Below the pieces are notes generated by a model, which had not been told where the DNA came from, searched no databases, and saw only the letters and a list, made by a program, of their open reading frames with translations. 36,583 nt of DNA from Turneriella parva (GTDB taxonomy: Bacteria; Spirochaetota; Leptospiria; Turneriellales; Turneriellaceae): NCBI GenBank assembly GCA_020719945.1, contig DYPL01000021.1, forward strand, positions 1-36,583. The letters run 5' to 3'. Below are positions 5,160 through 36,132 of this stretch, in pieces. The position numbers and the translations under genes are program-made. The number at the start of each line of letters is the position of its first letter. Positions within the stretch are counted from its first letter, which is position 1.

Positions 5160-5500
5160 TTACCGCGCGACTACAACGGTTCCACGGTAGCGTTTTCCTT
5201 CTGCCTCTATAACATACTGGTATACCCCTCCAGGAACCAGGGCGCCTGCTTCATCGCGGCCATCCCAGTATACGCTACCCTGCCCTGTGTCCGTATCTTT
5301 TTCCCAAAGTTTCACGCGCCGACCGCGCAAATCGAGAATGGCAATTCTGTATTCCGAGGACGGATTAGGCAAAGTAAAGGAAATCTTCATGTGTCCAAAT
5401 GTTTTCTCGCCACCCGCCATCTCATCCGCTCCACTGTAATGGGAATCGGTTCTGCCGGGAGTAAACACTCTCGGAAACAAGGTAACGTTGGCAATCTCTC
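5160..5500 (-). other. C-terminal FlgD/CHU_C-like domain of the 2909-aa protein
   Basis: This segment encodes the last ~110 residues. It opens with a PRVFTPG motif, continues with a strand IAILDLRGRRV, a WDGRDEAGALVPGGVY turn, and ends exactly at the C-terminus with YRGTVVVAR. This order is shared by FlgD Ig-like domains and by the CHU_C/type-B sorting domains of type IX secretion. The segment at 13893-14205 has the same order. Whether it sorts, anchors or is only structural is not shown by sequence. Confidence 0.65.
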
Positions 5501-8500: not shown

Positions 8501-11500
8501 ATTCATCGCTGCCAGTATTGCCTTTTTTTAGTACAAAATTATTCTCATCTAAAGTACAGGCTGCCGAATCCGTACAACCAGCAAGAGCTGTCAGTAAAGC
8601 CGGAGCCTTAATGCGGAAAATGCGCAGATCGTTGGAGAGTTCTCCCTGGTTTTCAAAGTAAACATTTTGCGTCCACGTATAATCCGGGTTTCCCGGATTG
8701 ATTCGGTAGGCCTCGTTAGGATTTGCATACGCTATAAAAGAGGGTTCTGGATTTCTTGAAATTGTTTTGTCCCATGTAATACCGGCGTCTCCCACTCCAG
8801 AAACAGGAGACAAAGCGGCGGGAGCAGAAAGATCCGATTCCGCTATATAGGCAATGGAATCATCTGTAGAATCGGGATTTAATTTTCCGGCAAAAGCAGG
8901 CCCCGGCAGGTTCGTATAAGAGTATGTTCCAGTATTGAGAATGTCCGTAAAAAAGTCTGCGTGCGCCTTCCACAATAATTCTTCTGCATTTAAGTGGGTT
9001 CCCGGAATATTAAAATTGCGGTTTTCGCGCACGCGGAATTCTAAAGTAGCCGTTGCCGCTGTCAGCTTTCCACCGGGAAACGTGACAATCCATTCGCCAC
9101 CAGAAACTGACATGGAAGTTCCCGAAGGCAGAAAATCCACGGTATCGAGAGAAGATGCATCGAACACCGATGGCGGAATAATTTTAACCCGCGCGAGTTT
9201 CTGCAGTCCCGCATTTCCCGCAATGGTCATCTTAAAGCGATGATACGAAGTATTCGGAACTGTTACAGCAATGCTCTGGTTGTCTATCCGAGAGGGCGGG
9301 TTTTGCGGATCACCTGTTTTTTCAAGAACTTCTACTTTGATTTGCGGTTCCGCTACAAAAGAAACCGTCGTAAGCGAAGCAGGCAGGGATTCCTGGTTTC
9401 CGCCAAACAGATTTCCGTCATTATTATCAAAACCAAGGACAAACTGTTTTGTCGTCTCTGAACCTGTATTGTGCGACCATTTCAAAAGAATCGTGTCTTT
9501 AGAATTTGAAGCCGTATCTAACCAAGGAATCGAATACGAAGACGAATTATCGATTTCAATTTTTTCTGTTGGGCCAGCACAACCTCCGCCAAAACCATCT
9601 CCCCCGGAACAGGTCACCCCGCTGCCCACTCCATAGCGGGTTGAAACATCGCCTGCCGCCGCAACAGTTACTCCCGAGGGAAGAGCAATCTGAATTTTAT
9701 AAATATAATTTGTAGTTCCACTCACAGCCGTATTTTGTACATAGAAACGGCTCTGGTGCGTTCTCGAAGAAGACGTGGTATACGCCACTGCAGGTTCTAC
9801 AATACCCGTGGCCAGACCCGGCGGAATCTGGTACAGAATAGAATTGTCTTCTGTTAATCCATCGTTATAGGTATCATCTCCATCAGATCCATTATAGACA
9901 GAGGCCAACACAGATTTGCCTGTATTGCTCGCAGAAACCTTGTTATAGCCATACAGCTTTAAGGCCTGCAGAGAGTTCGTCGAAACCGTATCGGCAAAAG
10001 AAAGCTCTACTATGTCTATAACAGAAAATCCAGCACCGGCAGAGGGAGGCAGTTCATCGCCAGATTCATAGGTTATCGTAAGTTTGCTCGTTGCGCCATC
10101 CCAGATGGCAGAAAAATCCGTTCCAGAAACAAGTTCAATCTGCGAAGCACCGGGATTCCATGTTTCTCGATGTATCGAAGAAACTGCCGGAACGCCAGAC
10201 ACAATGGCGGGAAACTCTATATCCACTTTATAAATGTTGTTCCCAGCCAACTCAGAAGGATTCTTAACATAGACTTTTACAGAAGAGGTAGATGACGTTG
10301 CATTCACTTCGTACACTTCTGACTGCGCCAGATCCGATGTTACAAAAGACTCCAGCGCGGGATCTGGATATTCCAGTATTGTTGTGAGCCTTGAGCCCGT
10401 TTTCTCGCGAGCATAAGAAGTTACTCCCGACGAATTATTTAATTTCGCCCGAAATGTTCCGGAGCGAACCGTATTGTTTCCATCGGAGCCGACATTTGTC
10501 ACAGTCTCGTATATTCCATCGCTGTTAGAGTCGCTGACAGTATAAAGAGAGTCCGCGAGTCCGGGATTGGCCAGATTGGAATTTTGCCGTATGGTAAAAC
10601 TAATCAGGTCGCAGGGAACATTGCTCTCGCCCGGGCATACGGTTCCACTGATTGTATCCTGATCTGATTTTAAGACATATCCTGCTGTGGAATAATCGAT
10701 GGTAACCTTATGGGTCACATGATCCAGAGAAATATGGCTGGCATCCGAAGCGCAATCGCTCGATGTTCCCCCGAGCACATTCAGATAACTGCTGCAAACG
10801 TCTACAATACCATAATTTCCACTGCCCAAATCTTCATCGAAAAAGGCTGGTATGTCTATGACGACAGAATCGATATTGTTAGACAGGCCCCCCTTGTTTA
10901 GAATCTTCATGTGGATATTTGAAATATTGCCACTGCTGATTTCGCTGGTAAACACGAGTGGCGACAAAAACTGATCTACCTGAATAGATTTGTCGCCCCG
11001 GAATAGAAAAGCCTCGCCGCGAGGTTCCGGAGGGGTAAACGAAAGCGACCAGCTTGCAGCCGGGTTTTCCGAGCCATCCGTATACTGCGGATACGGATAT
11101 GCCGGGGCCACCGAGTAATTTTCGTTATCTGACCTGTGTTTTATCGCATACTGCACAAGAGCTACATTGGTATCGCGAAAATAGCGCAGATTCATATTGA
11201 CAGCCAGTGTAGAACCAGAAGCCAGCGGAGAACCAGATAAATCGAGCCGTACCACTCTGTAGGTATTTCCGCCAATCGTTTCATTTCCGACTATGGTAAT
11301 CGTGGGAGTCACCGCGCTGCCATCTGCCAGCACGGAAACAATATCTCCCGAATTGACTGTTTCAAAATTTTCTCGGGTTGCCCCGGATGTTCCATCGCAG
11401 GTTGCTGCCTCGGGTCCCAAACCATCGCAGGTATAGGTTTCGTAGGGAATTAATAACTCGAGATTCTTTACCTGGTTAGAGGCACTCCCCTGGTTTTTAA

Positions 11501-13892: not shown

Positions 13893-14205
13893 TTACCTCG
13901 CAATCACAATGGTACCCCGGTACCGCTCTTCTCCGGCGCGAATCACGTAGACGTAAATTCCGCCTTTTACCATATTGCCGTTATCGTCGCGGCCATCCCA
14001 GAAAATCTGGCCGCCTCCCGTATCGCCCGGCTTTTCAATAAAATACACCCGCTTGCCCTCTACTGTGTAAACGGCAACCTCAACGGAATCGGGAGAACCG
14101 TTGATTGTATAGGTTAGCGACACGCGGTCAAAATTGCGGCTTCCCTGTCCTGGCGTAAATACGCGCGGTGAGACTGTTACATCGGCTATGGTACCACCAG
14201 AAGAA
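13893..14205 (-). other. C-terminal FlgD/CHU_C-like domain of the 2735-aa protein
   Basis: The last ~103 residues show the order PRVFTPG, VEVAVYTVEGKRV, GGGQIFWDGRDDNGN, GGIYVYVI, RYRGTIVIAR, ending exactly at the C-terminus. The same blocks occur at the end of the downstream paralogue. The terminal position and conservation between two otherwise divergent giants suggest a common sorting or anchoring role. This is inferred by analogy with the type B C-terminal domain of type IX secretion. Confidence 0.65.
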
Positions 14206-17200
14206 TCAGCACCAAAGATTCCATAATATCTATTGAGAGTGCTCACGCTGATGGTTGCCGTATTAGCGGCAGCATCTATTTTGGAGCCAATTTTGATCCA
14301 TTCGCCTCGGTATAGATCATAGGCAAACACGGAGAGATTGTTCTCACTCCAGCCGGCTGCTGTAATAATCGCTTCGTCATAAGTAAACGTAATCGTTCCG
14401 TTAGCTTCTGTCTCGTTGATTCCCTTATTGAGTTCGCGGTGCAGCAGATCCATTGTCTCAATGGAATTTCCACTGGCATCCTGGAGATCTAACGCAAATA
14501 CGGGAACGTTAGGCAGCGCTGTAACAGACGGTTTGCGGATATTCTTTTTTCCGGCCAATATGGCAGAAGAACCAGTCGGAGCATACTTCACATCCCATGC
14601 ATGGGTAGAGGCTTCCCACTGCGAAAGTTTATAACATTTTGGTTTAACGAAAAATGTCTCATTGATGGCTTCTCCGGGAATTTCTATGATGGCGCATTTA
14701 TCGGTGCCATCGCGGCCCACGGCTATATTTTCGTCCGAACCGCCAACGCTGAATGGAGCTTCTTCGAGAGTGAGTATATCCCCCAGATCTTTGATTGTAT
14801 TGCGATCCAGAACTATTTGTTTGGATGCCGTGATATAGCCGGGAGCGGAAGCTTTCAGGACAATGGTTTTGGTGGCAGAACAGGAGCTACCAGCAATGTC
14901 CGTACACATGGGAATTCCCTTTCCAGCACCGCCAATCGATGGATCGGAAAGCGTGCTGCTTCCGCCGGTATAAGTAATCTGTCCCACACCCGATGTGGTA
15001 TTGACCACCAGGGGATCAGAAGAAAAATCTACTATGGCCGTACCATTGGGTTCGTACAGAGATACAGAGACCTGAATATTTTCGTCTTTTACATTTTGCT
15101 TAGGCAGGATTGTACCGGATATGCCTGCAAAAGGAGCGGTAAGAATGGAGAAATTTCTGTCTCCCGTTGCGGAAATGCAATTGGTTGCCTTGTTTAGCAG
15201 ATCATCCGTGACGTTAGAAACAAGTGAATCACAAATGCCTGTCTGGGGAATGCGGGTTTCTAAAGCAAAGTCGGCAGGGGTTGCAAAGCTGCGCTTCATG
15301 GTTCCAGAAAGCGTAACGGTTACGGTATCTGTGGCATTGGCCGCAAGCTCAGTTCCAGTTCCATAGTTGACCGGTATAACATAAAAGTCTGGACCCGCTG
15401 CAGGACCCAGTGGTCCAGCGGTAGAAGAAGATGCCACAACCGAGCTTACCCCAAACTCCGATCCCGGAACGCGAAACGCAAAGAATGGCAATACTGCCGC
15501 GCCATTGGTCACCTTGACTTTGATCGTGTGCGAAAAGGTGCGGTTATCGGCTTCGTTAGAGTAACTGTACAACGTATTTCCCTCGACAACTTCCACTTCT
15601 ACCTGGGATGGCGGCGATGTAAACGTATGAGAAAGCGTTCCGTTAGAAGCAAGATCTGCGGTCTTGTACGTGCTCACCGCAGCACAGGGCTGATTAGAAA
15701 TTTCTACCGTCCATGCGGGCGGTGTAGCCGGAAGAGACAATACTTTGTAATCTACCGGTATTTCGATCTGAACTTTTTCTCCTGGATCCAAAACAGGTGA
15801 ACCCGCATTACAAAACGAAACCGAAAAATTGTTAGAGGATATGGAAGAAAAGTCCTCTGCACCGGCTCCGGTAATATCACCACCGCTGAGCAAAGTGGCT
15901 GTTATCTCGTTACTGAGCAGAGTAGCATCGTTCCCATCCCAGCTGCCATTTTTATCGGGATCCTTCAGGTAATCGGCTGCAAAACCGGGGAATGTAATTT
16001 TAACGGAAGAAATTGCATTGGTTCCGTTTCCCTTATTCTCCACATTCAGCCGGATTTTTCGTTTATTTCCAGTCGCCACTACAGATGCATCTGTCTCGTT
16101 CTGGTAACCATACACGGAATACCATGCGCCGGCTGTAGCCAAGAGCTGCCTATCTGTGTCAATCAGCGTTACCCATGCCGATGGATCGGGTCGCTTTAGA
16201 TAGATCACATCGCTCTTTCCCGTTAAAACGGTAGCAGTATAATTCTGGGTATAACCGGTAGAAAAACGCCCACTCACGGCAAACCGATGCGCAGCGGTTA
16301 CAGTAACCGGATAAACCGAAGCAGAATCGGCAATGGCTGTATCTGAACTTTCTAATCCCGAAAAACGAACTTCCACAAAACTGTCTCTTGGAATGATCGC
16401 TGCGGCACTCGTAAAGGTGACAATAAAATCCGCTGCATTTGAATCTGCTGCTGGATCGAGAATTCCGCCCGCACAATCACCGCTGCAACTGAAATCCATT
16501 CCATCTGTAAACAGTGTGCCGTCGGCATTATATAACGCATAGGTAGAATTGCCATCCGCCTTAAATACGGATAGCGGCAGGGTAACGGTGATTTGGTTTA
16601 TCTCTGCGCTGGCGTGTCCTGCGTTGCGAACCAAAAGACTCACGGAATGATCTACCCCGCTTTTGTACAGGATGATTTGACTGGCAGTATCTCCATCCCC
16701 TTCATTGGTTTTTTGCACAAAAATTTCCGAAGCGTGAGCAGGTTCATAAAAATAGAGAATCAGGCTTCGGCTGGTGTTCCCCGTTCCCTCGGTGACCGGA
16801 GTTGTCGCCGTTGTGAGCTCAGAGCCGGCGGGATCATTGCTGACGCTCACGGTAAACGCACCGGAATTGCCGCTTGCCGGTGTGTTGAACGTTGCCGCAG
16901 TGTTAATTTCTATTAGACTGCCTTGGGTCGCTACTCCCTTTTTAAACTTCACAATGATATCTTCTGCGTCGGAATTGTCGTCGTAGCAGAAATCCCCCGT
17001 TGAAAAATCCCAGCCATCGCACTGGCCCGCTGGAGTAACAGTATTGGCTGCCGACAAGGGAGTTCCATCTTTCTTAAGCGCGAGTACGGTTTTATCGAGA
17101 TTACTTACCAGCGCCGGACCGCTGATGCGGATATACTGCATGTCGTTGCCAGCAATAGCACTCTCGTTTTTCACAAAGAAACTCAAGGCTCCATTATCTA

Positions 17201-20200
17201 GACTCGTATCTCCGAGCGAACCCCATGCGGGAAACAGATACGACAAATGATTTTTGCGGTTGTCGAAGACATCCGTATTGACAGATAGATAAGCAGATGC
17301 CGGCATGGGAGGCAGAATAAATTCGGTGGAAATAGATCCCCCACTCACAATGCGGGAGGAGAGATCGTACCAGTCGCCACCGGTTCCCGTAAAATTTTGC
17401 GGCAAATCGGCAACTGAATCTGTTGTACCGTCCCTGTATACCGCCTCGGCAGTCCATGTATGGCTGCCTGCAGAAAAGTTGTCTCCCGATGGATTTTTCT
17501 TAAACGATATAGAAATGTCGTCAATATCTCCAGCCGCAAGTCCAGAAGAATACTGGAGAACCACATATTTGCAGGCCTCCAACTCATCGCAGGTTCCATC
17601 GTCATTGCCAATGCCATCCGTTAAAATTTCATCATACCCCGACTTAGACTGATTTCCAAAAGCGGTTGGGTTGCTGCCCAACTGCGTTGATTCAATATTC
17701 GAAACAACAAATCCTCCCGGAACAGCAATACGCGCTTTTGCAATGGCAGCAGCTCCAGACGGATTTTCGTTCGTCAGGCGATACAGTATTTGTCCCACGG
17801 AATCGGTAGTGTACAGCTTAACGGGATTTCCCGGCGAAACCGTATTTTTATCCAAAGAACTGGTCAGGCGCGTGAGGCCCTCTTTATTGATAAGCAGAGA
17901 CAGCGAATATCCATTTTTCGCCGTGCCCGAATCGTAAACCAGGGCATCTGGAGAAGAATCGTTAGTTGCGCTTACCGACCAGAGTGAAGAGGCAGAAGTA
18001 TTATATAGATGGTTCAGCGTAATCTCTAAGTTATCGGTACCAGAAGCCAATAAACAGCCAACGGTATAACTGTCGTTGGGACAATCGGCAAGGCCTTCGT
18101 AATTCACAAGCAGATGATCTCCATTATCTGTAACAGTTGCCCCCAGATTAGAGTTGCCACCATTATCTATGCTGGAAATTTTTCCCTGCCACGCAGAAGG
18201 AATCTCTATTTTAGCCTGGTATATATAATTGGTACCCACTCCGCTGTTTTTGAAATGCAAATAGGCTTTGACGGACGTAGCTGAGCTGACGGCAGGCATG
18301 GAATTAACAGCCGCTGCATTGCTCAAAGACAAATAAGCCTGAATCGATGCCTTAGGTTTGGATACGGAAACCTCTACCTGCTGCGTGCTGTTGGCCATTT
18401 TTGCCGTAGAAGCAGCAGGGATAAAATCAGCAGAGCCGTCCGATGGATACCAGGTTCCACCTGTTGCAGCTGAAAATTGGTTATAGCCGCGTGAGCGCAG
18501 AGAAATTATCTGGGAAGACGGCATAGCTCCCTGAGAATGGCCCATCTTCAACTCTATGTAATTGTCTGTGTCGTCTGTGTCTACCCCGCCTGCGCCAGAA
18601 AAATCGCACTCAATATATTTGTTTGTGTAAGCTGCATCTGCGGTACAAGTCACGCTTGCAGAGTTTCCGTTTACAAAGCCAGTAACTGAATCAAAGGCCT
18701 TACTGTCTCCCGTGGCTAGCCACGCAGTATTGAGAGCATCGGCACCCGCTGAGTCCCAGAGAGTCTCTGCATCTTTGCGAATATACAGGCGCAGTTTGTT
18801 GATGGAAGCTCCCGCCATTCCCGTGTTCATAAAATAATAACGGATTGTATTTTGTCTGCTTCCGTTGTCCCATGCAAGAGATTTATCGATGAGTAAAGGA
18901 TTGCTCTCATTATCAGCAGAATCAGCATGGGAACAGCGACCGGGTTCCGGAGAATAGTGGCATACCTCTGCATACCCGACAGCGTTCAGAGGCTGGTAGA
19001 CAAAGTCTATTTCATTCGCAGAAGCAGAAAGCGCAGCTGTATTTTTATAGTCTGCCGTATCCGTAGAATTGCTCACCTGCGATGCAAAAGCATAGGAAGA
19101 TAACGCGTTGTTATTTTCTACAGCATCAAAGGTGATTTCATCGAAATTTCCCGGAGCGACAGGCGTGGCATACGTTATGGTAATCTCGTTACCGGCCACA
19201 ACGGGAGTGCCTCCCCGCGCAGAAGTAACATTAGAAATGGAGGTGAATACCGCCGGAACAGAAATGCGAGCCATTTTGATACTGTTTCCAGCGTTGGTAG
19301 AATCTTCTGTTTCGGAAGGGTCAAACAGTTTGTAACTTATGCGAACGGAATCATTAGAGCTGGTAACGTATAATTCGCGGCTTCCCAATGGATCTTGTAT
19401 CGGATAAGAAAACCCGGTGCTTCGCCCGGCTTGTGCCTTAGCGCGCGGGAAAGGATTGACATAAGAGAGCGTATAGGTACCGGCAGAATCCTGCGTATAA
19501 ACATTATCGGTCAAAGCATCTCCGTTGCCGTTGTCAATGTTTCCATCAATGTCGAACGCTGATGTTCCAGAAAGAGTCGCAACGGAATCTTTCAGCGTAA
19601 TGGTTGCAATCAGGGAATTTTTTGCACCGCTGCTGCCTAAAAGTCCCAGATTGCCAACTCCACTCCCCTTTATTCCATCGAGATAGAGCGTAAGAGTTTT
19701 GGCTCCGGAAGTATTGTCAAAAACAATTTTAGCTGGATGGGTTGTATTCGTAAAAGAGAACGATTCCCCTCCCTGAACCACGCTCACAGAAACGCCCGTA
19801 ACCGAAGTAATCACATCTGGTAAATTGAGACGAACTGTTTTTATATTATTTCCGTCCTTTCCCTGGTTTGTAAGCTGAAAGGATACATCAGAAGAATCCG
19901 TATTATTGCAAAGGGTATAGTTGGGTTCCGCCGGCGGAGCATTGGGTCCATACGCCGCTGCATTGGAATTGCAGGCAATAGAAGGCGAAATCATGGCGGT
20001 GGCAACCGGTTTGGCAGGGCGCAATACAAAGAACTGACCAAACGCCGGGAATATTCCCGTTGTAGTATCGGTGGAACTCGCAGACAGAGAAGTGTTATAA
20101 ACCCGGCTTTTTATGCGAAAATAGGAGGGAGTAGTAACCGATGGAGTTGCCGTTCCGGGAAAGGTAATTTTATCCAGACCGCCGTCTCCAGGAATCATGG

Positions 20201-22100
20201 CGGAAGAATTAAACTGCACAACCGCCGTATTGCCAGCCAGCGAAGAGCTTAATCCAGCGTCGAGCAAACTGGTGGCAAAGTTAGTTCCACTCACACCAAA
20301 ATCTGACCAGGGGACTGCTGCGTTGACGACATAACAATCCGGGTTTGTGGCAGAAATACCAGCACCCGTACAGGTTCCGCTGCCTTCTGTATACGTCTGG
20401 CTGTACATTTCAAATTCTACTTTGTCTATTCCAGAATTATTGGGATCGTTTGGCGTTGCTATGTAATTTGCAAGATCCTGCGGAAAGCCCACGTAAAATA
20501 CAGAGGGAGAAAACGCGGAATACCCGACAGGCAGATCCAGCACTTTTACCTTGAGTAGATTTGCCGTCCAAGTATGCGCATTGCCGGCGCGCACCTTCTG
20601 CCACCCTGTGGTTGCATAGTGAAGTCCATCGGTTCCGCTTGTGTTATCTGTGTGCGAAGCATTGTATTTTTCGTTTCGCGCAAAAATGCCAAATTCCGCT
20701 CCGACCGCATCGGGAGTTGCTGGAGCCGTAAACGTAAACGTGATGCCAATGCGCTTTTCGGCATCGCCGGGTTTGATGACATCGTTATCGGCAGAAGAGA
20801 CGGCGCGAAATCTTAAAATGAGATCGTTGCCGCTGGTACAGGCATCTACCCCACCGTCGGCGGGAACGCTGTAAGAACAATCCGCACCCTTGTTGTTTAC
20901 TGCATGGCTTTTGAGAGCGGCTATTTCACTCCAGGCCGCACCACCGCCATGGGTAGTATACACGCCAAAGGAATTAATATTCCATGCTGCATAAACAGAA
21001 GGTTTGGCAATCTTAATCTCGGCAATGCCGGCATCGTCTATATTGAGCGTTGGGCTTATGACCATGGAGAATGGCACGACATCTCCGGCGCGCACCTGCG
21101 TTGGATTCATTTCAGCATAGGTGGTTTCTCCATCGGCAACCGAGCGAACGAGAAGATTGTCAAACGTGACAGCTTGGCTTTCTGTATCGGCTCTGGCAGA
21201 TTCCACCCCAAACATGAATTTTAAGTTATTGCTGAAGGTTGCTCCTACAGAACCCGTTTCTATATATTCATTTGGAAGACTGTCATTGTCATCGGGATCC
21301 GGATTGATAAAGAAACGAATTGTATCCCCATTGTGAACCATCCGAATTCCAATGAGATTGGTATTGACAGGATTTGCATTGAGTGTACCATTGTCGTCTG
21401 CGCCTCCCCCGGAATTATCAAAACACGCTCCGCCTCCGCTCTCGCAACTCGAGTACCTGTCATCGTAATTCCACTCTACCTGCTGGCTGCCAATACCCTG
21501 GTAACTGAGATCTATTGTTGTATTATCTGGTCGAACGCTGGAAACCATAGAGAAATTAGTCTCTGCAGCATAATAATATCCCCACATGCTCAGGGGCAAA
21601 CCTGTTGTACTCCAATCGTTCGGAGACTGGTATGCAGTGCGCTGAGAGCGATAGATCTCGTACATGTAGGTAAAATCAGATAAAACCTGACCACCTCCGG
21701 TAAAAATGGCTTCATCGCTGTACAGATAAAAGCTCATCCCACTCATGTGCCTATGCGATTCTGGATTGGAAGTATCGTTGCTCGGATCCAGTCTCGCGGC
21801 TGATTTTATTACCTGAACGCCAAACGGTTTTTGCGATGAAGCAGAATAGGTGTCACCTTCCCGCTGCATTCTTCCAAGCCAGATTCCATAAAGCGACCCA
21901 TTCTGATGCATTTTATTGTTGAAAACAAGTACACCAGATGCAATGCTTTCGTCCAATGATGAGGAAGCAGTCGTTGTTGCCCCATCCCGCCCATACCAGA
22001 CAACACTCGTCGCGCCACCGCTGTAATCGTTATAATAATAAAAACTTGTGGCAGACAAAGAACTAAAGGCTATGAGTGCCGCAGAAAGTAGTCTCAACAT
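13893..22100 (-). CDS. Giant secreted repeat protein with C-terminal FlgD/CHU_C-like domain (2735 aa)
   Basis: This is a paralogue of the next gene downstream. The signal peptide (MLRLLSAALIAFSSLSATS) is followed by a lectin/ConA-like domain (about residues 20-325) with motifs shared with its neighbour: YSASSQKPFGVQVIK here, YSASPEQPFGFQVIR there. About eleven repeats of 160-200 residues follow (about 350-2290), opening with segments such as FQLTNQGKDGNN, LHFKNSGVGTN and LNVENKGNGTN. A regulatory-like domain (about 2320-2445), a PGEAI domain (about 2455-2620) and a final FlgD-like domain (SPRVFTPGQGS, WDGRDDNGNMVKGGIYVYVI, YRGTIVIAR) complete it. The start directly follows the stop of the barrel gene (TAA-ATG) and its GGGG ribosome-binding site lies within that gene's end, so translation is coupled. 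Likely exported to the cell surface; the role (adhesin, sheath or filament) is unknown. Confidence 0.85.
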   Translation of the reverse strand: MLRLLSAALIAFSSLSATSFYYYNDYSGGATSVVWYGRDGATTTASSSLDESIASGVLVFNNKMHQNGSLYGIWLGRMQREGDTYSASSQKPFGVQVIKSAARLDPSNDTSNPESHRHMSGMSFYLYSDEAIFTGGGQVLSDFTYMYEIYRSQRTAYQSPNDWSTTGLPLSMWGYYYAAETNFSMVSSVRPDNTTIDLSYQGIGSQQVEWNYDDRYSSCESGGGACFDNSGGGADDNGTLNANPVNTNLIGIRMVHNGDTIRFFINPDPDDNDSLPNEYIETGSVGATFSNNLKFMFGVESARADTESQAVTFDNLLVRSVADGETTYAEMNPTQVRAGDVVPFSMVISPTLNIDDAGIAEIKIAKPSVYAAWNINSFGVYTTHGGGAAWSEIAALKSHAVNNKGADCSYSVPADGGVDACTSGNDLILRFRAVSSADNDVIKPGDAEKRIGITFTFTAPATPDAVGAEFGIFARNEKYNASHTDNTSGTDGLHYATTGWQKVRAGNAHTWTANLLKVKVLDLPVGYSAFSPSVFYVGFPQDLANYIATPNDPNNSGIDKVEFEMYSQTYTEGSGTCTGAGISATNPDCYVVNAAVPWSDFGVSGTNFATSLLDAGLSSSLAGNTAVVQFNSSAMIPGDGGLDKITFPGTATPSVTTPSYFRIKSRVYNTSLSASSTDTTTGIFPAFGQFFVLRPAKPVATAMISPSIACNSNAAAYGPNAPPAEPNYTLCNNTDSSDVSFQLTNQGKDGNNIKTVRLNLPDVITSVTGVSVSVVQGGESFSFTNTTHPAKIVFDNTSGAKTLTLYLDGIKGSGVGNLGLLGSSGAKNSLIATITLKDSVATLSGTSAFDIDGNIDNGNGDALTDNVYTQDSAGTYTLSYVNPFPRAKAQAGRSTGFSYPIQDPLGSRELYVTSSNDSVRISYKLFDPSETEDSTNAGNSIKMARISVPAVFTSISNVTSARGGTPVVAGNEITITYATPVAPGNFDEITFDAVENNNALSSYAFASQVSNSTDTADYKNTAALSASANEIDFVYQPLNAVGYAEVCHYSPEPGRCSHADSADNESNPLLIDKSLAWDNGSRQNTIRYYFMNTGMAGASINKLRLYIRKDAETLWDSAGADALNTAWLATGDSKAFDSVTGFVNGNSASVTCTADAAYTNKYIECDFSGAGGVDTDDTDNYIELKMGHSQGAMPSSQIISLRSRGYNQFSAATGGTWYPSDGSADFIPAASTAKMANSTQQVEVSVSKPKASIQAYLSLSNAAAVNSMPAVSSATSVKAYLHFKNSGVGTNYIYQAKIEIPSAWQGKISSIDNGGNSNLGATVTDNGDHLLVNYEGLADCPNDSYTVGCLLASGTDNLEITLNHLYNTSASSLWSVSATNDSSPDALVYDSGTAKNGYSLSLLINKEGLTRLTSSLDKNTVSPGNPVKLYTTDSVGQILYRLTNENPSGAAAIAKARIAVPGGFVVSNIESTQLGSNPTAFGNQSKSGYDEILTDGIGNDDGTCDELEACKYVVLQYSSGLAAGDIDDISISFKKNPSGDNFSAGSHTWTAEAVYRDGTTDSVADLPQNFTGTGGDWYDLSSRIVSGGSISTEFILPPMPASAYLSVNTDVFDNRKNHLSYLFPAWGSLGDTSLDNGALSFFVKNESAIAGNDMQYIRISGPALVSNLDKTVLALKKDGTPLSAANTVTPAGQCDGWDFSTGDFCYDDNSDAEDIIVKFKKGVATQGSLIEINTAATFNTPASGNSGAFTVSVSNDPAGSELTTATTPVTEGTGNTSRSLILYFYEPAHASEIFVQKTNEGDGDTASQIILYKSGVDHSVSLLVRNAGHASAEINQITVTLPLSVFKADGNSTYALYNADGTLFTDGMDFSCSGDCAGGILDPAADSNAADFIVTFTSAAAIIPRDSFVEVRFSGLESSDTAIADSASVYPVTVTAAHRFAVSGRFSTGYTQNYTATVLTGKSDVIYLKRPDPSAWVTLIDTDRQLLATAGAWYSVYGYQNETDASVVATGNKRKIRLNVENKGNGTNAISSVKITFPGFAADYLKDPDKNGSWDGNDATLLSNEITATLLSGGDITGAGAEDFSSISSNNFSVSFCNAGSPVLDPGEKVQIEIPVDYKVLSLPATPPAWTVEISNQPCAAVSTYKTADLASNGTLSHTFTSPPSQVEVEVVEGNTLYSYSNEADNRTFSHTIKVKVTNGAAVLPFFAFRVPGSEFGVSSVVASSSTAGPLGPAAGPDFYVIPVNYGTGTELAANATDTVTVTLSGTMKRSFATPADFALETRIPQTGICDSLVSNVTDDLLNKATNCISATGDRNFSILTAPFAGISGTILPKQNVKDENIQVSVSLYEPNGTAIVDFSSDPLVVNTTSGVGQITYTGGSSTLSDPSIGGAGKGIPMCTDIAGSSCSATKTIVLKASAPGYITASKQIVLDRNTIKDLGDILTLEEAPFSVGGSDENIAVGRDGTDKCAIIEIPGEAINETFFVKPKCYKLSQWEASTHAWDVKYAPTGSSAILAGKKNIRKPSVTALPNVPVFALDLQDASGNSIETMDLLHRELNKGINETEANGTITFTYDEAIITAAGWSENNLSVFAYDLYRGEWIKIGSKIDAAANTATISVSTLNRYYGIFGADSSGGTIADVTVSPRVFTPGQGSRNFDRVSLTYTINGSPDSVEVAVYTVEGKRVYFIEKPGDTGGGQIFWDGRDDNGNMVKGGIYVYVIRAGEERYRGTIVIAR
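15240..21040 (-). repeat. Array of ~11 degenerate 160-200-aa coding repeats in the 2735-aa protein
   Basis: Equivalent strand motifs lie near 21020, 20410, 19850, 19290, 18810, 18230, 17755, 17145, 16600, 16015 and 15490, about 480-610 bases apart. Unit count and order of motifs resemble those of the neighbouring giant gene, which suggests duplication of the whole gene followed by divergence. Confidence 0.6.
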
Positions 22101-24935: not shown

Positions 24936-26774
24936 ATGAAATCCAACCGCTTAAATTCCTACTACATTGCAGCCGGTCTTCTTTCCGCCATTTACGTGAT
25001 TCTGGTTTTGCGTGCGGCGGAACTGTTTTTTGCCAGCCCTCTCCCCTCCTCTGTGCGGCCTGTTCCCGAACCCATTCGGCGTGGAATGATTCTGGACTCC
25101 GTGGGGCATGAACTTGCCATCACTCTCGATACTGCATCTGTGGGTGCAAGACCCGGACAGATAGAAAACCCGGCGTCTGTGGCAGAAAAAATATCCAGCA
25201 TTCTGGGTATTCCATCCAATGAACTCCAGAAGACGCTTTCGCAGAAAGACAAATCTTTCTTGTACATTAAAAGAAAAATCCCGGAATCTGTGGGAAAAAA
25301 ACTGGAAGAAATGAAAATTCTGGGTCTCGATTTTTCGAGAGAGCCAGACCGTTTTTATCCCAACGGACATCTTGCTTCTGCCGTGCTCGGTTTTACCGGC
25401 GTTGACACAGAGGGCCTCTCTGGCATTGAATATCAATACAATGCAGATTTAACAACCTCCGACACAAAGCAGAGAATGGGAAGGAATGTATCGCTTACCA
25501 TCAATGCCTATATTCAGTACCAGCTCGAAAACATCCTGGGCGAAACATACCGGGAGACAAATTCTATTGGGGCGGTTGGTATTGTCTCTGAAGTCGCTAC
25601 CGGAAAAGTCCTCGCAATGTCATCCCTGCCCGATTTTGATCCGAATTCTGCCACCAGCTTTCCGGAAGCGAATCATCGCAACCGCGCCATTACAGATTCT
25701 TTTGAGCCCGGCTCCACGTTTAAGATTTTTACTCTGGCTTCCATTATTCGCGAAAACCTGCTCGATGAAACGCGCACCTATTACTGCCCCGGCCACTTTG
25801 AACACAATGGCGCAAAAACGGGCTGCTGGGGCGTTCACGGTAAACAGACGTTGCGGCAGGTGATCCAGAATTCCTGCAATACGGGAATCATAGAAGCGGC
25901 CTGGCCCGTTAGGGTAGACCGCATGCACAACACGCTTCAGTCTCTGGGGTTTGGCAGCTCTACCGAAATGGATCTGCCGGCAGAAGCATCTGGATTTTTA
26001 CCCCGCGCACAAACCTGGGATGTCTATCGAAAAATGTCTGTACCCATTGGCCACGGAATATCCGCCACGGGCATTCAACTGATTACCGCAGCCAATGCCA
26101 TGGCAAACGGAGGTTATCTCCAGAAACCCATGATTGTCGAATCCATCACGACGGCAGACGGCAAGGAAGTAAAACTGTTTTCTCCCCGAAAAAAGCTCCG
26201 CATCCTGAATAACGAAGAAGGCTCTAAGGTGCGCCATTATCTCGAAAGCGTGGTATCCTCTGCGGGAACCGGTGCGCTGGCCAGTATAGGCGGAGAACAA
26301 AAAGTATGCGGCAAAACAGGGACATCGATTAAGTCAGATTCTACAGGATATTTAAAGAATAAACATATCGCATCTTTTATCGGGTATTTTCCATGCGACA
26401 ACCCTGAAATCAGCATTTTTATCATGTTCGATGAACCTCGCGGAGGTGCCTACCAGGGCGGATCTGTAGCGGCCCCGGCATTCCGAAAAGTCTTGGAAAG
26501 AATTATCACCAACATTCACAGAGGAAAGGAAATCCAGGTGAAACCAATGACCTCCCTGCCCTGGTTTCAAGGAGAATATTCCAAAACGGAAATGCCCAAT
26601 CTGATTGGAAAAAGCAAAAAGGAAGTTTTGAGCATTGTCTATTCGCACTACCCTGGAGAACATGCATTCCATGGAGCGGGTTATCTTACTTCGCAGTACC
26701 CAAAACCAGGAGCTGCCATTACAGCACCCTTTTCTTTCTCGTTTGGCTTTTCGTTTGGCCCGGAAGCAGAATAA
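24936..26774 (+). CDS. ftsI: Class B penicillin-binding protein (FtsI/SpoVD type) with C-terminal PASTA-like domain
   Basis: This 612-residue peptidoglycan transpeptidase is anchored by one N-terminal helix (about 9-30). The PBP-dimer domain spans about 45-170 (RRGMILDSVG start). The transpeptidase domain carries all three active-site motifs: S260-T-F-K263, S313-C-N315 and K460-T-G462. Residues 551-598 (MPNLIGKSKKEV...SQYPKPGAAI) match a single PASTA module. The last ~12 residues, FSFSFGFSFGPEAE, are an odd aromatic/Gly tail. FtsI-type enzymes cross-link septal peptidoglycan with FtsW. Here the gene is not in a dcw cluster but follows lepB after 3 bases, so it could be a second class B PBP rather than the essential division enzyme. 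The ftsI symbol denotes the subfamily only. Confidence 0.88.
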   Translation: MKSNRLNSYYIAAGLLSAIYVILVLRAAELFFASPLPSSVRPVPEPIRRGMILDSVGHELAITLDTASVGARPGQIENPASVAEKISSILGIPSNELQKTLSQKDKSFLYIKRKIPESVGKKLEEMKILGLDFSREPDRFYPNGHLASAVLGFTGVDTEGLSGIEYQYNADLTTSDTKQRMGRNVSLTINAYIQYQLENILGETYRETNSIGAVGIVSEVATGKVLAMSSLPDFDPNSATSFPEANHRNRAITDSFEPGSTFKIFTLASIIRENLLDETRTYYCPGHFEHNGAKTGCWGVHGKQTLRQVIQNSCNTGIIEAAWPVRVDRMHNTLQSLGFGSSTEMDLPAEASGFLPRAQTWDVYRKMSVPIGHGISATGIQLITAANAMANGGYLQKPMIVESITTADGKEVKLFSPRKKLRILNNEEGSKVRHYLESVVSSAGTGALASIGGEQKVCGKTGTSIKSDSTGYLKNKHIASFIGYFPCDNPEISIFIMFDEPRGGAYQGGSVAAPAFRKVLERIITNIHRGKEIQVKPMTSLPWFQGEYSKTEMPNLIGKSKKEVLSIVYSHYPGEHAFHGAGYLTSQYPKPGAAITAPFSFSFGFSFGPEAE

Positions 26775-28126: not shown

Positions 28127-29168
28127 ACAATGCATCGAAGAAATACTTCAATGGATACTTATCGAAAAAGAAGGACGATACTATTTGCCTTTTCTGAATA
28201 GTCCATTGTATAGCGAACGGGGTACAACGCGCGAGATGCAGCTGCTCACAGCATTGCGCAAAGAAAATCCAGGAAAACTGATTTATGTAGGACCGTACCG
28301 TGCAGAATGGAGAGAAGCAGAATCGTTCTTTGAAGCATGGATCCCAACGGGCGGAGAACAGTGGAATCCGGGTCCAGGTATCATTGTATCAGCGGATCAA
28401 TGGATTGAGTTTCTGCACTCCATCCGTCCCGAAGATTCTCTCACCGTTGTGGTGCATCCTTCTTTTCCCGCTTCTATGTACAGAGAGACCATAGACAACT
28501 GCCTTCGCAATTCTCTCGCTTACGCTGCTGGAAGATTAAAAACCCTGCGCCATTTCACTAAAATCTGGGAATACAATGCCCGCAGAAATGCAGAACTTTG
28601 GAAGGCTTTTACGTTTCCAGAAAAAATAGAAAAACCGGATTATTTCATTCTAGGTGGTCCACAAGTGGATAATGCTGTAAGGAATATTCCCTTGGGTGCC
28701 GTACTCTGGGTGGCCGATACGGCCCTGTTTACTGTATTGCACCATGGATTTTCTGTCTCGCTCACTTTTTCTGTAGATGCTGGATTTGCGAGCCGGGAGC
28801 ATTTTTTCGGCATCCCCCGGAAGGCGCTCTCAAAACTGGATATCTTTGTAGACTTTCTCTCTCATCCAGCAGTATTAGCATTGCCCTTTCGTAAAACATA
28901 TTCGTATTCGAGCAGCCACCCTCTTACGCCTAAAAGTCTGCCCGCTCTCGTAAACGGTTCGGGAGACGTAAAGGGAATCATGACGGCGCTATTCACAAAA
29001 CTGTTTCCCGGAAAAGATCTGCCGGAAATGATTGGAGGAACGGGTTTGCACAGCGGGCTCGTTTCCCATCTGAGGGGATCCGCCTACCACCGGCGCATGG
29101 CTACGCGCGCAAACCGATTCATTACGGCAGAAAATTATTTCCGCATTCTGTCGCAGCGTTACCGGTAG
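28113..29168 (+). CDS. DUF115 (MptE-like / motility-accessory-factor) family protein
   Basis: This 351-residue cytoplasmic protein has the core (about 170-340) of the DUF115 family. YFILGGPQVDNAVRN is followed by VLWVADTALFTVLHHGF and SLTFSVDAGFASREHFFG, a Rossmann-like nucleotide fold. NGSGDVKGIMTALF and a terminal HLRGSAYHRRMATRANRF complete it. Family members include archaeal MptE-like pterin pyrophosphokinases and bacterial proteins (Maf type) linked to flagellin glycosylation with nonulosonic acids. In spirochaetes such genes often accompany cell-surface or motility loci; here no flagellar gene is near. The ATG at 28113 is used instead of a TTG five codons upstream. It overlaps the lipoprotein gene by 14 bases and converges on the RDD gene with a 10-base overlap of stop regions. 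Confidence 0.7.
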   Translation: MEQSRQCIEEILQWILIEKEGRYYLPFLNSPLYSERGTTREMQLLTALRKENPGKLIYVGPYRAEWREAESFFEAWIPTGGEQWNPGPGIIVSADQWIEFLHSIRPEDSLTVVVHPSFPASMYRETIDNCLRNSLAYAAGRLKTLRHFTKIWEYNARRNAELWKAFTFPEKIEKPDYFILGGPQVDNAVRNIPLGAVLWVADTALFTVLHHGFSVSLTFSVDAGFASREHFFGIPRKALSKLDIFVDFLSHPAVLALPFRKTYSYSSSHPLTPKSLPALVNGSGDVKGIMTALFTKLFPGKDLPEMIGGTGLHSGLVSHLRGSAYHRRMATRANRFITAENYFRILSQRYR

Positions 29169-29812
29169 TTTTCTCGGATAAAACGGGCGATGTCATTCTC
29201 TGATATGGATTCGTCGCGCACGCGAACTACATAGGTACCGAAGATTTTATCGTGAATCCCACGCACCTGAGAAGAATGCTCCATGGTAACCGTAACGAAG
29301 AGATTGATGGGAAATCCTTTGAAAAAACTGCGCAGGAACGATTTCCAGAAAGAAAGCGGTTTGCCGTCTTTGGTGACTACTCGAATATTCATGCTGCGGC
29401 GCAAAAAACTGCTACCACCGCGACTGGGACTGGATTCCAGAAAAGCCATCCAGACATGCCACAGGGCCCACAGCAGCAATGCACCCGCAGCAAGGGCAGG
29501 CCGTTGTGCAGAAGACAAATCTCCCTGAAAATATCCCTTCAATAAAACCATGGCAATCACAGCCCAAACGATCATGCCGAGCCGCAGCAGATAGCGCTCG
29601 TAAAAGTGCGTCCAGATTCTAATTTCCATGGGAGCCCTGACAATGGAAGGATGTTCCAGGGCAAACCAAGCCTCCCGCAATATTTCATATTTCTCCGCGT
29701 CTTTATCGGAATCGATAATATTGAGAAGTTGCATCAGATCGTCGCCCTTCAAGCGAAAAGCGTTATCCCGAAATTCCTGCATTTCTTCGGATAGTATTTG
29801 TTTTTTAGCCAT
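29159..29812 (-). CDS. RDD-family membrane protein, last gene of the efflux operon
   Basis: This 217-residue protein has a soluble N-terminal part (1-65; DSDKDAEKYEILREAWF) and two membrane helices (about 72-95 and 105-125). An RDD-type C-terminal half then includes MNIRVVTKDGKPLSFWKSFLR (Gly/Arg-bearing segment) and the typical end RGIHDKIFGTYVVRV. RDD proteins are thought to take part in transport of small ions or to accompany transporters; function is poorly known. It starts one base after the RND stop (TGA-T-ATG), so it is the distal gene of the tetR-tolC-RND unit. It may act with the pump. Confidence 0.75.
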   Translation of the reverse strand: MAKKQILSEEMQEFRDNAFRLKGDDLMQLLNIIDSDKDAEKYEILREAWFALEHPSIVRAPMEIRIWTHFYERYLLRLGMIVWAVIAMVLLKGYFQGDLSSAQRPALAAGALLLWALWHVWMAFLESSPSRGGSSFLRRSMNIRVVTKDGKPLSFWKSFLRSFFKGFPINLFVTVTMEHSSQVRGIHDKIFGTYVVRVRDESISENDIARFIRENYR

Positions 29813-29813
29813 A

Positions 29814-32800
29814 TCAATCCTTCTCCGGTTCGCGCAAATGTTTGGTAATCACTCTATGAAAAATATACGCCCTGTCTTCCCAGATGGTGTAATACACGGG
29901 AATTACAATCAAAGTGATGAGAGTGGCAAAGGTCAATCCCCATGCTATCGTAATTGCCATTGGCTTCAAGAAAGGATCATCGCCTCCTATGCCATATGCG
30001 GTAGGTAGAAGCCCAAAGAGAGTTGTGATGGTGGTGAGCAATACGGCGCGAAGGCGCGTGGTTCCGGCCTCCACGACGGCCTGGTCCCGGCTTTTTCCCT
30101 GCGCGCGCAATTTGTTGATATAATCGACGAGAACAATGGCATCGTTTACCACCACGCCGGCCAGACCAATAATTCCAAACGTAGCCAGAAAGCTGAGCGT
30201 TAAATTTGGGATCCAGAATACCTTGTGGATAAAGAAAGTAAAAATAACACCCACGAGGCCAAGGGGGATGGCCATCATGACCACGCGCGGATGGCGCATA
30301 TTGCCAAACATGAGGACTAAAATAATCATTATTCCCAAAACAGCTATGAGGAAAGAAAACCCGAGATCCTTCATGGAATCCTGCGTGTCTTCGTATTCTC
30401 CGCCCGCCTTAAATGTCAAATTGGGATGCGCTTCCCGTATTGCTTTTGTTTTGCTCATGAGCTCGGTATTGACGCGCACGGAAGAATTTCTGTTCTCGTC
30501 AATGTTGGCCTTAATGTAAATAGTGCGGATAAAATCGGAATGTGTTATCAGCGAAACTCCATCTTTTTTCTCGAACCAGGCAAGCTCCGTGATGGGAACC
30601 AGATTGCCAAAATTGTTGCGCACTTTCACCTGCTTTAATGAATCGAGAGAATTTCTGTAGTTTTCTGGCAGAATAACGCGAATATCAATTTCTTCGTCTG
30701 CCTCTTTAATTGAAGATGCCACTCGGCCTTCAAAGAATGTCTGTATGGTACTCGCAATTTGCGTTACGCTCACCCCCGCCATAGCAGCGCGCGCCTCATT
30801 AATCTGAACGTGGAACTCCTGCTTGCCCTCTTCCTGGTTGTCGCGAATATCATAGACGCCTTCAACTCCGGAGAGAATCTCTTTGACCTGCCGCGATACG
30901 CTGCGCAGCTCTTCAAAATCATCGCCCCTAATTTCAAACTGGACGGGAGCCCCCACGGGCGGGCCACCACCAGCCTGCATATATTCAATTTTTTCGAGCC
31001 AGCGCTCTCCATTCTGGATAACGCGAAGGCTGCCACCGTTTTCCAGCAACAATCCATGGGTTCCCGGAAGAATGCCCGCTTTTTCAGCATCGGGAAAGAA
31101 TTGCGGAGTTCCCGAAAAGGAAACGCTCCGGGAAGAATTCAATTGCTCTGGAACAACAGAGATGAGACCATCGATAAGACCAAGATAAATTCTGTTTTCT
31201 CTGGCAGGAATAATCGAATAAAGACCTTCCTGCGAATACTTAGTCTCCTTTAATAATTTCTTCTGTGTTATGGAAACTTCTCTCAAAAAACCGTCGGTTG
31301 CGGTAAACAACAGTTTGTCACCCCGTACCAATACATCTGTCACGGGAGCCAGACGCGCAAAAGCCGGCTTACCATTTTTTTCGGGCGGTTCTGCGCGGGT
31401 AAGCGCATGGCGAATCACAAAGCCTTTTTTAAGATTTTTAGCATGGAATTGCGTAACCGTCCCGGCGCGGGATCCTACATAAAAGTTTTCGGCTTTTTCA
31501 TCCCAGGCGATGGAGTTTACTGGTTCACTGAGTTTTGCCTTTTTGGTTCTTTTGAGCGATTGTGGCGTGAGTTCAAACACATCGCCAAGCTCCGTAAAAA
31601 GGAATCCTTTGGATGCGTCCGGCGCAAATGTCGCAAATGATGGCGAATCAAATCGTTTTAGATCGTACTCTTTTTTCTGAATGACTTTTCCTGTTGTCGG
31701 ATCTACCACAATAAATTCATTTGCGATGGTATAGGCTGCCACCAGATTATTACCGGGCAGCAGAACCCCCTTGAGCCATACATCCGAATCAACGACATAA
31801 CTTTTTGCAATGCGTCCGGGCGCGGCGGGGCTGTATGCCTGCATGATTCTATCACGACGCATTATATACAGCAGATTGTCCTGTTCAGAAAAGCCGGCAA
31901 AAACAACAGGATTCGATGGATCCAGGTGCTTTTGCAGATATAGAATAATTTCTCCCGCCGTGCGCGCGCGGGTATTCTCTGGAGTAAGATACAGAGTCAC
32001 CTGCCCAAACTTTTTTCCGATTTTGGTAAAAGGATCGGCAGAGCTCTCCTGGTGTATGCCGATTCGGGCAGAATAATCGGTCAGCTCTTCTTTGGGCAGC
32101 ACGGATACACCGTGTTCAAAGAACGAAATTTTCTTCTCCATTTCGGAGAGCGATATTCCCTGGGCTGCTTCTGCCTTTATAAAAATCGTTTCTATGTTGT
32201 TTTTGGGAAACAGTACAAACCCAACTTTGGGCAACAGAGAAAAGCCCAAGAGAACAACGCCTATCGTAATAACAATCACCGTATAGCGGTTGGGCACGGC
32301 CCATTCAATCACGGGACGGTAAAAACGAAGCAGAAGGTTGTACAGTTTTGCTTCAAACCGGCTTTCGTGCGGCATTTCGCCTTTCTTTTTTTTGGGACTA
32401 ATATCGACAAGGTGGCTGGGCAATACAAAGATACTTTCTACCAGAGAGGCCAACAGAGCAATGATGACTACCATGGGAAGGTTCGACATAAATTTGCCCA
32501 TAATCCCGCCAATCATCAGCAACGGTGCGAATGCCACTATAGTCGTGAAAATGGCAGCAGATACGGGAGCCACCATTTCGGTGGTGCCCACAATGGCGGC
32601 TCTCACGGGGGAAAGGCCCTTTTCAAGATGCCTGTAAAAGTTTTCACCAATCACAATGGCATCGTCCACAATCATTCCGGACACAATGATGAGACCAAAC
32701 AGGCTTAGAAGATTGATGCTGACACCAAACAGCTTCATGAATAAAAAGGTAGCGGCAAAAGAAATGGGAATTCCGATGGCAACCATAATGGCCACGCGCC

Positions 32801-33875: not shown

Positions 33876-35404
33876 TATTCCACCTCCGCTATCAGTTTTT
33901 CAATATCAATCTGGTAGCGTTCAAAAATTTCATTTTTTGCGAGATCCAGGCGAAGCAGCGCAACATTGAATTCAATGAGGCGTGCTAATTCTTCCTGCCG
34001 CGATGAATTCAAGGAATCCATGGCAATTTTTACGACAGTTGCATTCAGGCGACCCTGGTTGCTGCGAGCTATTACTTTGGCATAGTAGGCCTCGGACTCT
34101 GTGCGAACGCGGCGCGTTTTCAGAAGAACGTCGTGGGCAAGGCGAACATGCTCCAGACGATTCAGAACATCGTCGCGAATTTCACTTTTGAGTTCCTCTA
34201 TTTCTATTTCGCGCTGTTTAATGGTCAGACGTGAATCGCGCACAGAGGTGCGAATTTCCTCATCCCACAGTGGATAGCTCATTTTTACAGAAGCCTGCCA
34301 TGTCGGATATGTAAATCCCGGCAAGTCGGCATTTGCGGTAAGAATATCCTCGTCCTGCCCGTTTCCCTGCACAGATAAAATGGCAGACAGAGAAGGCAAA
34401 GCATTGTTCTCGCTGATTTTTCTGGACTCGCGGGCAATCTCGAGAGCGCGCAATGCATTGCGGTAATCGATGCGTTTGGAAAAGGCGGCCTCCAGAGACT
34501 CCTGCTCGTTCAGCGAAGGTAAAACGTCGGTGAGATCGGTAATCCCGGAGACCTGGGTTTCGGGGGGCATGTTCACTGTGCGCAGCAGAGTTCTAACAGC
34601 TTCGCGGTTAGCCTGTTCGCGCTGGCTCAGGCGGCTTTCGGCAGAAGCAACGATGGAGTTGTACTGGTTGAGTTCGTACTGCTCAGAAATACCAAGGCGA
34701 ACATTGCGGGCAATGGTATTGCGAACATACGTGGCGGTCTCGACTTCTTTTTGAGCGTTCTCGACTCCCTTTTTTTCTATCGTCACTTGCCAGTAATCTA
34801 TGAGCGCCTGAACGACAAGGCCAGAGAGCTGGTCGAGAAGAGCGGAACGCGTGATGGCAGAATTCAGCTTGTTGAGTTTATCTTCCCTTCGATGATTTTC
34901 GCCGAACGAATTTTTGAGCAGTTCCTGCTGGACACTGAAGAAAAGAGAAGGCTTGTAATAAGCAGGATCCTGGTCTTTCAGCATGGGAATTTCAGGATCG
35001 TTGCTGTCCGAAAGATGCTGCGTAATGCCGGCAGAGAGGACGGTACCCGTGCCAAAAAGCTTACTGATGCTGGCAGTGAGTTCGTATTGTTCAAATTCAT
35101 CGCCCGAAAAAACAGTACCTCCGGAAGCTGGCTGCTTCCGTTTGAGTACGCTGGCCTCCACATCTACGACAGGCGCATACTTTTTGCGGGCACGACGCTC
35201 GGCAGAATCCGACATGATCACATCATATTTGGATTTGCGCAGCGTAAGGTTGTTTCGCAACACGAGCTCCAGGGCATCGGCCAGAGGAATTTTCATTCCG
35301 TTGATGTAAATGTTCTGTTCTTCTGTCGCTTTTGGCTCCTCCCCCATGGCGTGGCCAAACGTTAAAAAAATTGCGTAAATAGAAAACAGGAGCTTTTGTT
35401 TCAT
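33875..35404 (-). CDS. tolC: TolC-type outer-membrane efflux factor
   Basis: This 509-residue protein has a signal peptide (MKQKLLFSIYAIFLTFGHAMG). The OEP family layout occurs twice. It starts with the segment IPLADALELVLRNNLTLRKSKYDV (about 36-60), followed by a beta segment with FSGDEFEQYELTASISKLFG. A long helical stretch follows (about 165-260), rich in Gln/Glu/Arg/Ala (RNTIARNVRLGISEQYELNQY), then a second helical and beta repeat (about 290-500). Length is normal for TolC-like channels, which form trimers joining a periplasmic pump to the outside. The tetR gene overlaps its start by 4 bases (ATGA) and the RND gene overlaps its stop (TAATG), so three proteins are produced as one coupled unit. 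The tolC symbol denotes the family only. Confidence 0.88.
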   Translation of the reverse strand: MKQKLLFSIYAIFLTFGHAMGEEPKATEEQNIYINGMKIPLADALELVLRNNLTLRKSKYDVIMSDSAERRARKKYAPVVDVEASVLKRKQPASGGTVFSGDEFEQYELTASISKLFGTGTVLSAGITQHLSDSNDPEIPMLKDQDPAYYKPSLFFSVQQELLKNSFGENHRREDKLNKLNSAITRSALLDQLSGLVVQALIDYWQVTIEKKGVENAQKEVETATYVRNTIARNVRLGISEQYELNQYNSIVASAESRLSQREQANREAVRTLLRTVNMPPETQVSGITDLTDVLPSLNEQESLEAAFSKRIDYRNALRALEIARESRKISENNALPSLSAILSVQGNGQDEDILTANADLPGFTYPTWQASVKMSYPLWDEEIRTSVRDSRLTIKQREIEIEELKSEIRDDVLNRLEHVRLAHDVLLKTRRVRTESEAYYAKVIARSNQGRLNATVVKIAMDSLNSSRQEELARLIEFNVALLRLDLAKNEIFERYQIDIEKLIAEVE

Positions 35405-36132
35405 GGAGAACCTTCCGGGATTTCGGTTTTGTTTCGGGAAAGGAATTGATCAATCATTTGAATTAGACCCTCTGGGATGGCGGATAGTTCCGGGATTTTC
35501 TCTGCAACGGCAAGCGTCTTAAAAACAGATGTTTTCAAAAAGTCATAAAATGATTCCCACTCGTATTGGGGCAATACATGTTTTATGGAAGCCGTACTCG
35601 TCGTACTGAGATAAAACAGCAAAGATGAAACAAACTGCATCACGACGAGTTCCGGATGCAAAGTTTCAAAAACTTTTATTGAAATTCCTTCCTTAATAAG
35701 TATAGTGAGTTTACCCATACCCATCATGAGCCGTGCCGGAAAAGCCGAAAACGTTCCCTTCTCCAGTTTTTCCCAGTGGATAATACGGATCATGTCTTCG
35801 TCGAAACACTGAAAATGCTGCTTGACAAAAAAGTATAAAATGGCGTTTAATCTGTCCTGAACAGGCAAATCCATTTCAATAATGCTGTTTACGAGAGAAT
35901 CCGAAGCATGGATTTCTTCGGAGAGTCTTTCTATCACAGATTCGTAGAGTTGTTCTTTGGTGGAAAAATAATAGTGGATCATGGCTTTATTGACCCCGGC
36001 GTTTTTGGCAATAGAATCCATGCGCGCACCGGAAAAACCAACCCTAGCAAATTCATCTTTTGCCGCGTTCAATATCTGTCCTTTTGTACTCGGTTCCACG
36101 GGAAAGAATAATTTAATTATCCGGTTGGTCAA
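35401..36132 (-). CDS. TetR-family transcriptional regulator of the efflux operon
   Basis: This protein of up to 243 residues has a TetR-type N-terminal DNA-binding domain: ILNAAKDEFARVGFSGARMDSIAKNAGVNKAMIHYYFSTKEQLY (about residues 20-63), with the helix-turn-helix at 38-57. The C-terminal ligand domain is alpha-helical. It is the first gene of the efflux operon and probably represses it, as most TetR regulators of RND pumps do. The start is unsure. The outermost candidate is a TTG at 36132 with an AAGGA directly against it. A GTG at codon 12 (36099) also fits the family and would lie right behind a possible promoter (TTGACC at 36127-36132 and TATTCT), giving a leaderless message. The wider limit is listed. 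Confidence 0.85.
   Translation of the reverse strand: MTNRIIKLFFPVEPSTKGQILNAAKDEFARVGFSGARMDSIAKNAGVNKAMIHYYFSTKEQLYESVIERLSEEIHASDSLVNSIIEMDLPVQDRLNAILYFFVKQHFQCFDEDMIRIIHWEKLEKGTFSAFPARLMMGMGKLTILIKEGISIKVFETLHPELVVMQFVSSLLFYLSTTSTASIKHVLPQYEWESFYDFLKTSVFKTLAVAEKIPELSAIPEGLIQMIDQFLSRNKTEIPEGSP

Follow-up and report, generated by a model that had tools for sequence, protein, structure and literature searches.

Few transporters have been studied as closely as RND pumps, and the route by which cargo reaches their porter cleft is still debated. The described permeases closest to the protein reported here are those of the AcrB/MexB/MdtB/MexK type, with MexK and MdtB as the nearest solved structures by sequence. 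The entrance to channel 2 is the cleft between the PC1 and PC2 subdomains (PMC8277102), and the AcrB residues M662 and F664 are located at this entrance (PMC8300642). Both residues are carried by the strand AMVFAF, which lines the channel-2 cleft in AcrB. AcrA, a separate protein, makes contact with PC1/PC2; the membrane-proximal domain of AcrA has been linked to channel-2 access (PMC8934357). Large insertions in porter-like subdomains have a precedent elsewhere in the RND superfamily, in the luminal domains of NPC1 and Patched; those insertions separate beta2 from beta3 in the porter-like domains, and they are not described there as propellers (PMC8277102).

Here we describe an RND permease that carries a predicted seven-bladed beta-propeller inside its PC1 subdomain. 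The original prediction knew of no RND pump with such an architecture, and our search of the open-access PMC literature likewise found no description of one. The pump and the propeller fold are each known; their combination at the PC1 site is new. A natural pump with a large folded domain in a cleft-forming subdomain, retained throughout an order, offers a direct test of what the rim of the cleft and the adaptor each contribute.

The DNA analysed, referred to as the window, is the whole 36,583-nucleotide stretch of a Turneriella parva contig, and it contains an apparent operon in the order TetR, TolC, RND, RDD (Table 1). The reading frame of the RND gene confirms the previously reported length of 1353 residues. 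The protein matches Pfam ACR_tran (PF00873) with an E-value of 4.5e-194 and 647.5 bits (cut-off 28), in two stretches flanking an unmatched block at residues 655-960. As in AcrB/MexB/MdtB/MexK-type permeases, the RND core aligns in two halves and the relay aspartates and the TM11 arginine are kept. The proton relay was assessed with the AcrB-type residues D407 and D408 (TM4), R971 (TM11) and K940 (TM10): D404, D405, R1274 and T1281 align with AcrB D407, D408, R971 and T978, whereas the equivalent of K940 is N1244, adjoined by D1245. Because of this replacement we do not class the permease as AcrB-type in the strict sense. The NCBIfam model NF033617 (RND_permease_2) scores 574.3 bits, below its curated cut-off of 1250, and the protein is left outside that family as well. 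Apart from the propeller the pump looks functional, and its transport would be proton-driven.

Table 1. Features of the pump locus in the window. Blade residue numbers are the local numbers of the block model plus 645.
Feature	Residues	Window positions	Strand	Basis
TetR-family regulator, at the head of the apparent operon		35401..36132	-	Pfam TetR_N 1.2e-13
TolC-type outer-membrane factor (OEP), 509 aa		33875..35404	-	Pfam OEP 2.3e-16; one-base overlap with RND start
RND permease (ACR_tran family) with inserted propeller, 1353 aa		29814..33875	-	Pfam ACR_tran, conserved relay residues
Last PC1 helix, directly before the insert	640-650	31926..31958	-	Model of residues 1-1200, alignment to AcrB 641-651
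Predicted seven-bladed beta-propeller	657-954	31014..31907	-	AlphaFold2, Foldseek; not in L053/L054 or class relatives
Blade 1	657-694	31794..31907	-	Model strands 657-663, 668-673, 677-681, 689-694
Blade 2	700-736	31668..31778	-	Four strands in model
Blade 3	745-781	31533..31643	-	Four strands in model
Blade 4	786-822	31410..31520	-	Four strands in model; then low-confidence loop 823-844
Blade 5	845-879	31239..31343	-	Four strands in model
Blade 6	887-919	31119..31217	-	Four strands in model
Blade 7	935-954	31014..31073	-	Three strands modelled
PC1 edge strand KIEYMQA, directly after the insert	962-968	30972..30992	-	Model of residues 1-1200; aligned with L053 strand KINFTQI
RDD-family membrane protein (217 aa), next gene downstream of RND		29159..29812	-	Pfam RDD 2.2e-9

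The surplus length is best seen against two Bdellovibrionota homologues (L053 and L054, 1035 aa), whose RND core is ~36-39% identical to that of the window pump and which are without the propeller. From the conserved RxR motif before the last PC1 helix to the GGPPVG motif there are 331 residues in the window protein versus 28 in these homologues, an excess of 303 residues that forms a single in-frame block, as had been predicted. Alignment to AcrB and to the two homologues upheld the proposed insertion site, after the last PC1 helix and before the next strand, and it is this block that sets the window pump apart from the AcrB/MexB/MdtB/MexK-type permeases. The linker between helix and strand measures ~5 residues in L053/L054 (GLPQG or GQPEG), is variable and charged in the insert-less relatives from the class, with ~40-60 residues in most of them, and totals ~110 residues in one relative (L064). 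Since its length differs so among these proteins and the window protein, the loop is a place of length change; it appears to tolerate such change, the propeller being the extreme case.

We modelled the block with AlphaFold2 from an alignment of seven orthologues and obtained a mean pLDDT of 82.6, a pTM of 0.81 and 27 beta strands, which we read as six blades of four strands each plus a seventh of three. Both the fold and the blade number agree with what had been proposed, and the anticipated limits of 655 and 960 needed a correction of only a few residues. The leading PDB matches in Foldseek include WD40 domains and the seven-bladed YncE of E. coli (probability 1.00), and the TM scores against YncE and compact WD40 domains are ~0.65-0.73. 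A profile built from the seven inserts finds regulator-type propellers and WD40 chains among PDB sequences (E-values 1.6e-9 and 2.3e-8), and members of the insert family match propeller families in Pfam with a best E-value of 8.1e-6, under the curated cut-offs. As a single sequence, the insert has no match above cut-off in Pfam, PHROGs or NCBIfam, and the propeller therefore shows only with a profile or a model. The window insert reaches 22.4 bits with PF13570 against the required 133, which places it outside narrow WD40/PQQ membership. The domain thus shares its predicted fold and its profile similarity with WD40 domains, YncE and other seven-bladed propellers, but differs from them in being embedded in a membrane transporter and in having a sequence far under the WD40 or PQQ cut-offs. 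Modelling thus supports a seven-bladed beta-propeller for the insert, a fold that is solid as a prediction; it is WD40/YncE-like as modelled, with WD40 and PQQ/YncE as candidate sub-families. The missing single-sequence Pfam match is what one would expect if the block were an artefact of assembly or gene fusion, or a non-propeller RND domain. Against this stand the confident model and its fold matches, together with the recurrence of the block at the identical site in six other independently assembled loci and in one more that is split over two contigs. Because of this recurrence the block is no chance reading, and we regard the artefact or non-propeller explanation as having practically no probability.

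In the AcrB alignment the insertion point comes behind approximately residue 651 and ahead of the strand AMVFAF; the exact AcrB residues assigned within the gap are unreliable. The propeller would accordingly be found beside the cleft in three dimensions, and the periplasm would hold three copies of it per presumed trimer. In AcrB, R637 (R637-D568) is locked to the membrane side, at the interface between membrane and porter domains (PMC8300642). Because this is the start of the helix preceding the insert, the insertion loop probably lies, by analogy, where the cleft strand is farthest from the membrane and not at the mouth of the cleft. A model of residues 1-1200 returns RND pumps in a search with its overall fold; with a pLDDT of 61 and a pTM of 0.43 it is too poor to place the propeller relative to the cleft, and we claim no orientation of the propeller from it. 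Gating by the propeller at the cleft is a guess that we advance tentatively.

The pump is present in 8 of the 18 genomes from the order of the host, every time with the propeller (the G013 copy is divided between two contig ends); in the remaining ten only distant RND proteins are seen. The insert is absent from all 30 genomes of the other families of the class, many of which have an insert-less orthologue. A clade of RND proteins with an insert at a shared site, which the original prediction had envisaged, was indeed found: in a tree built without the insert columns the carriers group together in a single clade (support 100/100), and the character changes state once. Since the carriers form one clade and the insert is absent from the other families, the data support a single gain of the propeller, in the ancestor of an order of spirochaetes related to Leptospira. 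No paralogous propeller that could have been the donor was found in the host genome at E <= 1. Nor was any further propeller-bearing RND protein recognised, among the weak matches checked, when 393 genomes sampled from the phylum were searched. The phylum-wide weak profile matches are reading frames of 194 to 1014 aa; four were tested, and these have matches to WD40, PQQ or other propeller families and no RND domain. The carriers include MAGs of Leptospiraceae and Spirochaetia, and one MAG deposited as Caldithrix sp. (L047, DYKF01000006.1). The pump of the latter is 92-93% identical to that of the window and groups with spirochaete sequences, and for these reasons the taxonomic label of this MAG is likely to be wrong.

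Comparison of the window with this congener gives a dN/dS of 0.12 for the insert and 0.086 for the whole gene, and purifying selection that keeps the propeller is supported at the sequence level. Between genera the insert is only 16-19% identical, versus 49-69% for the rest of the pump; across genera the fold is kept and the surface is not. Such low identity argues against a conserved chemical binding site. The propeller could also be a nearly neutral decoration, tolerated in a length-variable loop, given that its site is a hot spot of length change and that, between genera, no other part of the pump is as poorly conserved as the insert. The full length of the domain in the orthologues of the order and its low dN/dS speak against this, and domains of 300 residues are rarely retained without use; we consider neutrality improbable.

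In each of the eight carriers the gene immediately after RND is the RDD gene. Elsewhere in the class no strong orthologue of it was found, the other matches being weak (E >= 3e-6), and no RDD gene was recognised after the pump at the loci of insert-less orthologues that we examined; L053/L054 are without it too. The RDD family is poorly understood, and our finding makes this protein a likely pump partner. Some carriers (L049, L051) have no TetR or no TolC gene next to the pump: the L051 locus is without TolC, and none was seen in L049.

Adaptors were sought in gene neighbourhoods and by matches to HlyD_D23 and Biotin_lipoyl_2. At none of the loci examined, whether or not the pump has the propeller, did we recognise an adaptor gene nearby; the adaptor gene that goes with the pump in tripartite HAE-type systems is found neither in the window nor in the carrier loci. 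The host genome has a single HlyD_D23 match, in a TolC/ABC-2 exporter locus, carriers G001 and G006 (98-99% complete) have none, and in other carriers adaptor homologues are encoded elsewhere in the genome. Some carriers thus seem to manage with no RND-type adaptor that can be detected, a condition that is not tied to the propeller. It had been suggested that the propeller might replace an adaptor, and replacement of a lost one would leave a two-part pump of RND and TolC. The absence of an adaptor gene from the operon speaks for this, as do the missing matches in G001 and G006 and the location of the only one in the host. The suggestion is weakened by the insert-less proteins, as the class relatives and the outgroup pumps L053/L054 (where an outer-membrane-factor-sized gene likewise lies upstream) also have no adaptor gene beside the pump; the adaptor was consequently gone, or elsewhere, before the propeller came. 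Simple replacement fits poorly in time and was rejected; adaptor homologues do exist in other carriers, and one propeller per protomer is small for spanning the periplasm. Replacement is in our view quite improbable, and the least likely of the functional readings.

Propellers such as those of WD40 proteins, TolB and BamB are general protein-binding scaffolds. The window propeller may similarly dock a specific periplasmic protein, whether cargo, a peptidoglycan or outer-membrane partner or a TolC-type channel, and have no part in gating the cleft. If every lineage followed a partner of its own, one would expect the fold to be kept while its sequence drifts, as it does here, and the TolC and RDD neighbours are conserved; on the other side, the neighbourhood of the pump holds no third conserved periplasmic protein and TolC is not constant. 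We give this docking reading a fair chance, though less than an even one.

The interpretation that we favour, and hold to be somewhat probable, is that of a proton-driven ACR_tran permease whose once-gained propeller serves as a cleft-side cap or gate and/or as a docking module. The propeller would be a covalently attached module of the periplasmic PC1 subdomain that may cap or gate access to the PC1/PC2 cleft, dock a periplasmic partner, or both, and it might do in cis part of the job that the membrane-proximal domain of AcrA does in trans; that domain has an unrelated fold, and its likeness to the propeller is one of analogy only. The pump may act with the neighbouring TolC-type channel where this is present and with the RDD membrane protein, its constant genomic companion. 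The evidence for a cleft-side role is positional. Against the favoured reading count the sequence drift of the insert, the probable membrane-distal position of its loop, N1244 in place of K940, and the absence of a nearby adaptor gene from insert-less relatives as well. Pure docking is about equally likely, with neutral decoration less so. A stronger version would make this a new class of RND pump, with a propeller fused into the porter domain that governs the entry of substrate or links the pump directly to its partners in place of any periplasmic adaptor, and with the RDD protein as an obligate subunit; it strikes us as unlikely.

Several other genes were noted. The host genome (G000) encodes four RND permeases versus one detectable HlyD-type adaptor, that of the ABC-2 exporter locus. 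On host contig C26 (L062:5356-9663) lies the gene for a second unusual RND protein, of 1436 aa, in which ACR_tran (residues 20-997) is joined to a C-terminal OEP/TolC domain; RND-OEP/TolC fusions are known in Bacteroidetes. Two class relatives (L064:4496-8491 and L065:3780-7412) have RND proteins with ~112 extra residues after PN2, a segment similar to the PN1 motif (TPYPG...ITKPLEE), which gives the impression of a duplicated porter subdomain. In the window itself, 24936-26774 on the plus strand encodes an ordinary penicillin-binding protein 2-type transpeptidase (PBP_dimer and Transpeptidase). Two adjoining giant reading frames on the minus strand (5160-13889 and 13893-22100; 2909 and 2735 aa), with a C-terminal FlgD Ig-like domain as their sole Pfam match, probably encode large secreted or surface proteins.
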